Source of the DNA: a virus
Strand: one strand, 5' to 3'
Length of the DNA: 35,784 nt
Virus record (IMG/VR): IMGVR_UViG_3300014501_000044
Location: 1 to 35,784 of that record
Position 1 is the stretch's first letter; each line of letters opens with the position of its first letter. Under the pieces are notes generated by a model. The model made no database searches. It had not been told where the DNA came from and saw only the letters and a list, made by a program, of their open reading frames with translations. Position numbers and translations under genes: made by a program. This document shows, piece after piece, positions 35,252-35,784 of the stretch.

Positions 35252-35614
35252 ATGTTAGAAGATATGAAATTGAAAGATTTAATGCAATTAATATCAATGT
35301 TAAAGCCTGTTAATGATATAAAAAAAGAATACCAGGGCTATAAGATTGTAAGGACATATTCTGCTGGTGTTTTCGCTGGTTATATTGAATCTAGAACTGG
35401 TCGTGAAGTTGTCATGACTAATGCTAGACGTCTTTGGATGTGGTCGGGCGCGGCATCATTGTCTCAACTAGCCATAGAGGGCACAAAAAATCCAGAAAGT
35501 TGTAAATTTCCATGCGAAGTTGCACGCGTGGAATTATTAGAGGTCATAGAAATTATAGATTGTACTGAAAAAGCTGAAAAATCTATAAAGGAAGTACCAA
35601 TATGGAAACAATAA
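35252..35614 (+). CDS. DUF6948-like phage protein (120 aa)
   Basis: The core YKIVRTYSAGVFAGYIESRT, then GREVVMTNARRLWMWSGAAS and LSQLAIEGTKNPESCKFPCE, is very characteristic. I know it from phages as a conserved small protein (DUF6948) of unknown function. A central beta domain ends VARVELLEVIEIIDCTEKA, with a C-terminal VPIWKQ. Its last 13 bases overlap the start of the Gly-Tyr repeat gene, and I recall such repeat ORFs behind this family in other phages. The coupling suggests the two act together. Confidence 0.8.
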   Translation: MLEDMKLKDLMQLISMLKPVNDIKKEYQGYKIVRTYSAGVFAGYIESRTGREVVMTNARRLWMWSGAASLSQLAIEGTKNPESCKFPCEVARVELLEVIEIIDCTEKAEKSIKEVPIWKQ

Positions 35615-35784
35615 ACTCCGGCTCCCATGACGGCGACGGCTACGGCTACGGCTCCGGCTCCGGCTACGGCTACGGCTCCGGCTACGGCTCCGGCTCCGGC
35701 TCCGGCTCCGGCTCCGGGTACGGCGACGGCGACGGCGACGGCTACGGCTCCGGCTACGGCTACGGATACGGGTACGGCTACGGC
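35602..35784 (+). CDS. Gly-Tyr/Ser/Asp dipeptide-repeat protein (runs off the window end)
   Basis: The ATG at 35602 follows AAAGGAAG by eight bases and lies inside the DUF6948-like gene. It encodes METINSGSHDGDGYGYGSGS, after which every second residue is Gly, with Tyr, Ser or Asp between, to the end of the window. The codon pattern is uniform (GGC plus TAC, TCC or GAC). The frame is open at the last base. The likely C-terminus is the DGDGDGAAAAKELEAA end at 2-52. Low complexity of this type can give flexible, aggregating or phase-separating proteins, but that is inference. Confidence 0.7.
   Translation, partial: METINSGSHDGDGYGYGSGSGYGYGSGYGSGSGSGSGSGYGDGDGDGYGSGYGYGYGYGYG

Follow-up and report, generated by a model that had tools for sequence, protein, structure and literature searches.

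What is encoded by a dipeptide-coding repeat that lies at both ends of a viral record, and does it represent one gene, two genes or an artefact of assembly? We addressed this question for the IMG/VR virus record IMGVR_UViG_3300014501_000044. The window discussed below is the whole record, 35,784 bases in length, classified by IMG/VR as linear and without end repeats. Pfam searches identified genes for a P22-like portal, Dam, AAA_24 and DUF6948, while PHROGs added the terminase large subunit and replication initiation; a search with the portal found one relative in IMG/VR. The features relevant to the repeat are the following.

35252–35614, + strand: DUF6948 gene, 120 aa; domain at residues 32–112 (Pfam PF22253, E 2.2e-30)
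35602–35784, + strand: 5′ part of the Gly-X repeat gene, with no stop before the record end; (G[YSD])n follows a METINSGSHD leader
35602–35614, + strand: 13 nt shared by the start of the repeat gene and the 3′ end of DUF6948, stop included
35630–35784, + strand: 6-nt coding repeat array, 25.8 copies by TRF, mostly GGC-TAC/TCC/GAC
2–52, + strand: tail of a repeat ORF, reading DGDGDGAAAAKELEAA-stop; GC-rich and perhaps of foreign or chimeric origin
49–213, + strand: second repeat ORF; leader VTRALVGDIPAWV, then (GX)n; the leader resembles those of the HATLxPxKW-domain class
87–212, + strand: 6-nt coding repeat array, 21 copies by TRF; possibly the 3′ portion of the native repeat gene
2650–3498, + strand: AAA_24 (Sak4-like) ATPase gene, a recurrent DUF6948 neighbour in relatives
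3498–3989, + strand: DUF669 gene, near DUF6948 in several relatives

The right-end repeat ORF starts with ATG at 35602, begins METINSGSHDGDGYGYGSG and extends for 61 codons with no stop by 35784. The second repeat ORF at the left end starts with GTG at position 49 within a GTGA overlap, reads VTRALVGDIPAWVGYGYG... and ends at 213. An earlier sequence-only reading had described the same dipeptide repeat at both ends, with a gene start at 35602, a gene end at 2–52 and a GTGA-coupled second ORF at 49; (GGC-TAC/TCC/GAC)n coding repeats were indeed found right and left, and the coordinates and reading frames agree. Its remark that the direct junction is out of frame was also correct: the right record end is a codon boundary and the left-end frame starts at base 2, so a direct join of the ends is off by one base. 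Low-complexity matches of the array to Pfam TrAA12 and CFAP143 were below cut-off and were dropped.

The pair formed by DUF6948 and the repeat gene recurs in many unrelated phages. A repeat-first search with an exact 27-base repeat stretch against viral contigs returned at least 120 loci, with an array passing the filter in 119. Among the matches listed, a DUF6948-family ORF, recognized by a profile iterated from similarity within the same loci, ends no more than 300 bp upstream of the array in 93 of 102 testable loci; the rest of the 119 comprise 17 loci with less than 500 bp of upstream sequence and 9 without DUF6948. The reverse search used DUF6948 alone and covered the best 80 of at least 573 viral relatives together with 52 genome loci, some loci being the same contig fetched twice. 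A Gly-X array lies within 500 bp downstream of DUF6948 in 78 of these best 80 viral loci (the misses are L014, with nothing, and L181, with a degenerate array, 7/10) and in 43 of 47 testable genome loci, as 5 of the 52 end too soon; three of the four genome loci without an array are partial or weak DUF6948 matches. The search of DUF6948-adjacent ORFs for similar repeats, proposed from the sequence alone, was strongly positive. As a control, 874 other segments of those loci were put through the same test, and 6 matched in sense and 1 in antisense orientation. Together with the Gly-X array score in the window, which was reached by 0 of 64 other segments, the 6/874 sense matches rule out a chance repeat.

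In 93 of 116 unique arrays the repeat gene begins 12 nt ahead of the final base of the DUF6948 stop codon, which gives the same 13-nt overlap as in the window, from which we infer translational coupling there. In one locus (L023) DUF6948 and the (GX)n array are fused in frame into one ORF. The gene pair, its overlap and its coding frame are established observations, and the module is widespread. The phage collection holds 15 records with DUF6948 relatives, of which 14 were fetched (the remaining one is another entry for Iodobacter phage PhiPLPE), and a Gly-X ORF follows DUF6948 in all 14 of these named phage records, with short arrays in two human fecal phages. Three plasmid-collection records possess a Gly-X ORF behind DUF6948 too. 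The annotated protein MAMAMALA... of Chlorobiaceae phage CV-1-33 (L416 2292–2537, gene25) is another frame of a Gly-X array, and in PhiPLPE the array falls between annotated genes; with several of its frames open, a Gly-X array can mislead gene callers. Among the record titles of the genome loci are Acidobacteria, Clostridia, Bacteroidales, a cyanobacterium and archaeal MAGs; these loci are mostly MAGs, which makes host assignment loose. As a separate observation, two loci (L063 and L066) contain several successive Gly-X ORFs with no DUF6948 found upstream.

The window DUF6948 protein scores 105 bits against PF22253 (cut-off 27), a family with no stated function, to which the present analysis adds a Gly-X partner and an Sm-like model. 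All 42 sequences of the modelled set match PF22253 at E ≤ 0.001, and no other Pfam family was found at that threshold. Very distant members are weakly supported by Pfam: among ten deliberately distant ones, eight match PF22253 at E ≤ 1 (four at or above the cut-off, four below) and two have no match. The AlphaFold2 model built from the 42 sequences has a pLDDT of 97.7. A Foldseek search against PDB gave top rows that are mostly Sm/LSm (best E 0.02), with the solved Sm-like protein 3by7, derived from an environmental sequence, among them. In VIA-align, 50 of 50 rows are Sm, LSm, Sm-like or spliceosomal/snRNP proteins, the best having Z 6.9, rmsd 2.1 and 58 aligned residues; according to the tool, a Z below 8 can reflect a common arrangement. 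A search of the DUF6948 profile against PDB sequences yielded no Sm match and one unrelated match with E 3.2, so the Sm-likeness is structural only. Judging from the model, DUF6948 is likely an Sm/LSm-like small beta-barrel; the matched chains are Sm/LSm, and other barrels, such as the OB fold of SSB, remain compatible. Ring formation and RNA binding, as in Sm/LSm proteins, are predictions for DUF6948, and the low-complexity part is here a separate overlapping gene.

The repeat genes of the module consist of a leader and approximately 7 to 80 Gly-X units, with X mostly Tyr, Ser or Asp. In 103 arrays of at least 12 units, mean heterozygosity at the six unit positions equals 0, 0, 0.11, 0.43, 0.50 and 0.11, the first two values being 0 by construction, as only Gly-codon units were kept. 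This profile places the variation at the amino-acid-changing sites of the X codon, with silent sites nearly fixed within each array. Of 75 arrays with a sufficient number of units, 73 have one third base for the Tyr, Ser and Asp codons alike, as against 19.5 (sd 3.7) expected from a between-array shuffle. The silent-letter dialect varies from array to array: among 279 arrays, GGC is combined with C in 176, GGC with T in 63, GGT with C in 18 and GGG with C in 15, and 7 have others, the Gly third base being C, T, G or A depending on the array. Dialects agree in 6 of 6 pairs with DUF6948 identity of at least 98%, in 77% of 22 pairs at 90–98%, in 56% of 133 pairs at 80–90% and in about half at lower identity. 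A dialect with T at both silent positions was seen in 1 of 235 pure arrays (2.8 expected, many of the phages being low in GC), numbers too small for a conclusion.

Deviation per site in 8361 units of 270 arrays amounts to 1.0–1.1% at Gly positions and 2.8–2.9% at silent sites, and X lies outside Tyr/Ser/Asp in 7.0% of the units, summed over two sites. Per site, such changes are about as frequent as silent ones, which argues that selection on X identity is not simply strong. Pro codons (CC) occur 3 times and Ala codons (GC) 60 times among the 8361 units; in a smaller array set, Ala codons number 22 versus 265 expected from independent sites. The retention of Gly and the avoidance of Pro and Ala argue for selection acting on the encoded protein. 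The order of X residues is near random, equal neighbours having a frequency of 0.302 against an expected 0.333.

Between close relatives the arrays change rapidly. Among 74 locus pairs at least 85% identical over at least 250 bp, 44 have identical arrays. Loci L149 and L150 are 100% identical over 732 bp, yet possess 11 and 29 units; L306 and L309 are 100% identical over 1067 bp and have 23 and 36 units, resembling a 13-unit duplication; in L294 and L296 (99.3% over 1067 bp) the unit order differs throughout. Metagenome arrays may hold assembly errors, which could cause some of this variation, and isolated phages, here represented by deposited assemblies, are the safer evidence. Three isolated Pectobacterium phages, Ymer, Abuela and Amona, show no difference in the 382 bp before the array or the 700 bp after it; Ymer and Abuela have 31 units and Amona has 28, with a different middle part. 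Koroua and Pappous share identical 700 bp downstream and have 39 and 21 units, respectively. The arrays are hypervariable between otherwise near-identical phages, and the reading frame is kept. We hypothesize that hexamer units are gained, lost and reordered in 6-nt steps via slippage or annealing recombination, and that an array may now and then expand anew from a small number of units; silent letters would thereby be fixed and be shared by its Tyr, Ser and Asp units. Selection would retain Gly and the Tyr/Ser/Asp mix, not the order of units.

Coding tandem repeats and contingency loci are known to alter a protein between close relatives by unit gain or loss. The Gly-X arrays likewise change by gain and loss of units; however, each of the four CDS length differences examined is divisible by 6, so that a unit change does not shift the frame and provides no on/off switch in the pairs seen, while unit order and number vary and the silent letters are fixed per array. 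Targets of diversity-generating retroelements are characterized by adenine-specific changes, a reverse transcriptase and a template repeat; the pattern of the arrays, with T/G and A/C at fixed places and shuffled units, appears to be a different one. A diversified natural Gly-Tyr coding repeat is also found in the D segments of bovine ultralong CDR H3, where the codon repeats are reported to be diversified by somatic hypermutation and not through shuffled units (PMC7366855); these segments are unrelated.

Some repeat ORFs run on behind the array into one of two domains, of the WHHxLTGSC or the HATLxPxKW type. Searches with these domains found 66 loci of the first type, with both array and DUF6948 in 44 of 45 testable, and 80 loci of the second, with both in 65 of 68 testable; this association is partly circular, as the seeds were taken from array genes. 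The WHHRLTGSC domain was modelled with a pLDDT of 95.9, and comparison of the model with PDB gave no clear match, the best Z, 6.3, covering 64 residues in one half of it. For the HATLxPxKW domain, neither annotated phages nor Pfam yielded a match. In one locus (L128), the stretch that precedes the array in the array ORF weakly matches DUF7666 (PF24703), below cut-off. A relative of the WHHRLTGSC type was also noted in a protein of Riemerella phage vB_RanS_CRP5 (L140, 126–515) annotated as a ribonuclease inhibitor; this protein suggests that the domain may follow other repeat types.

With the module defined, we return to the ends of the record. The sequence-only reading had held that the repeat caused the assembly break and that the genome is circular or permuted. 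The former is plausible, since among the best 80 of at least 573 viral DUF6948 loci 13 end within 600 bp downstream of the match and 4 within 600 bp upstream. The latter gained indirect support from six AAA_24 relatives of the window: in five of them a homologue of a right-part gene (28.9–34.5 kb) lies 0.8–4.0 kb from AAA_24, whereas in the window the same genes are separated from AAA_24 by ~25–31 kb along the record and by ~4–9 kb across the ends. Given this spacing, and an AAA_24 and/or DUF669 homologue near DUF6948 in ten DUF6948 loci, the two ends of the window probably adjoin each other in a genome that is circular or permuted. DUF6948 and the array are absent from all six AAA_24 relatives (0/6), which marks the pair as accessory.

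The attribution of the repeat genes to this phage is in doubt at the left end. Bases 21–86 have 73% GC as opposed to 35% in the 1.5 kb upstream of the right array, and the leader of the second ORF has a GC3 of 0.92 versus 0.26–0.41 in seven window genes. Loci of the matching (HATLxPxKW) domain class are GC-rich, with 2 of 80 below 50%; moreover, in the domain class with such leaders 64 of 66 upstream DUF6948 proteins carry R or K in front of GVF, where the window has A. The foreign composition and the mismatched leader class cast doubt on the left-tip ORFs as genes of this phage. It is conceivable, though doubtful, that both left-end repeat ORFs are native, the phage then carrying a tandem pair of repeat genes: of 291 array-bearing locus strands, 25 contain at least two array ORFs, and in an annotated relative (MW202898) a second Gly-X-like stretch, read by eye, lies behind the first. 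The GC, GC3 and leader class of the left tip speak against such a tandem. The simplest reading may be one native repeat gene running from 35602 through the array that ends at 213, with bases 1–86 possibly joined in error from a GC-rich phage via the shared repeat; the left tip may accordingly be an assembly chimera. Chimerism with another organism, named beforehand as the finding that would overturn the initial interpretation, is thus a live issue for the left tip and not for the right-end gene. A scan with the left-tip leader DNA matched no contig, and short-word BLAST of the left tip gave no match among all fetched loci.

As to function, we tentatively favour, with less than even confidence, a split nucleic-acid-binding scaffold in early phage DNA metabolism, composed of the modelled DUF6948 barrel and a disordered, Tyr-rich Gly-X chain. 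The barrel would probably be oligomeric and bind RNA or single-stranded DNA; the chain is expected to be disordered, with hardly any Lys or Arg and some Asp, Tyr acting as a weak sticker. The ratio of the two proteins would be set by their coupled translation, and together they would form a nucleoprotein scaffold or condensate at an early recombination or replication stage. Such a pair would resemble in its action the folded core and disordered linker of bacterial SSB, or an Sm protein that bears a low-complexity tail, but with the two parts on separate chains. Bacterial SSB combines its core with a disordered linker, and condensation is reported for it (PMC12143593, PMC11947617). The likeness lies in the proposed combination of a nucleic-acid-binding barrel, a disordered region and a place in DNA metabolism; the pair differs in its Sm-like rather than OB model, its two polypeptides, the dipeptide array and its hypervariability. 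No shared acidic C-terminal tip, a feature of SSB, was seen among the Gly-X ORFs inspected.

The gene neighbourhood is mixed. Of 160 neighbour ORFs picked, 116 were scanned, the rest being near-duplicates or surplus, and the matches include 15 AAA_24 or Sak4-like, 5 RecT and 5 YqaJ proteins, with ERF, replication initiation and methyltransferase families as well as terminase and integrase; known DNA-metabolism families are a minority of the 116. The pair could alternatively act at the virion or cell surface, with the Gly-X chain serving a structural protein as a flexible spacer or an adhesive segment that is varied for contact with the host. Gly/Tyr/Ser chains suit spacers, hypervariability fits contact with varying hosts, and in Pectobacterium phages the pair adjoins genes for a tail fiber and a membrane-associated protein. 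We nevertheless consider such a tether unlikely, as recombination and replication genes are the recognizable neighbours in many other phages, the DUF6948 partner is modelled as Sm-like, and Pfam places neither of the two fused C-terminal domains in a structural-protein family, nor does NCBIfam above its cut-off.

A role in counter-defence or host takeover, in which DUF6948 would display an acidic aromatic chain as a decoy or sponge varied against recognition, appears less probable still: the genes are small, accessory, hypervariable and widely spread among hosts, but near-random residue order with a stable mix points to composition more than to a recognition code. PADLOC HMMs, which cover defence rather than counter-defence, gave no match at E ≤ 0.1 for DUF6948 or either C-terminal domain. 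We assign the lowest probability to a DNA-level explanation, in which a selfish hexamer repeat, or one that promotes recombination, sits behind DUF6948 and the repeat protein is incidental. Fast turnover and near-fixed silent letters per array do indicate concerted evolution in DNA, and recombinase genes lie nearby in part of the set. However, no single DNA word is kept, since the Gly third base differs between arrays; the array gene start overlaps DUF6948, the frame is preserved through length changes, domains are fused in frame after the array, and Pro and Ala are avoided.

Returning to the scaffold, we speculate, with considerable reserve, on a broader picture: a split Sm-like nucleoprotein system distributed over very different hosts, whose disordered partner is a fast-shuffled combinatorial polymer under a Gly plus Tyr/Ser/Asp rule, with arrays re-grown in their own silent dialect, perhaps via phage annealing recombinases. 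We know of no described system joining an Sm-like protein with a Gly-X repeat partner. No description of the DUF6948–Gly-X pair was found in open-licence full-text literature, from which most subscription papers are absent, and the names DUF6948 and DUF7666 occur in 0 papers there. A term search of the Ymer-genus paper (PMC11445585) did not find glycine, hypervariable or DUF6948. The parts are of known kinds, namely a Pfam family, an Sm-like fold and a coding repeat, and the novelty lies in the joint system. If the scaffold reading is true, a very common, undescribed phage module couples an Sm-like protein to a natural sticker-and-spacer polymer, and phages that differ only in unit order or number would allow a direct test of whether composition or order matters in disordered regions. 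The mode of sequence evolution is itself unusual, with amino-acid-changing positions varying and silent positions homogenized. In practice, Gly-X arrays can interrupt the assembly of phage genomes and lead to false annotation, as in one published gene for which the wrong frame was chosen.

Several further elements were noted in the window. ARAGORN predicts a tRNA with a four-base anticodon (gtca) at 582–654 on the + strand, and a second tRNA match (Rfam) at 675–806, also +, spans 132 nt for a 71-position model, which suggests an insert of ~60 nt. An int-alpA RNA (RF02996) at 6049–6117 on the − strand scores 40.7 bits and exceeds the gathering score. More tandem repeats are located at 28749–28838 and 31469–31569, comprising a GCT/GAT/TAT-rich array and 23- and 18-nt repeats.
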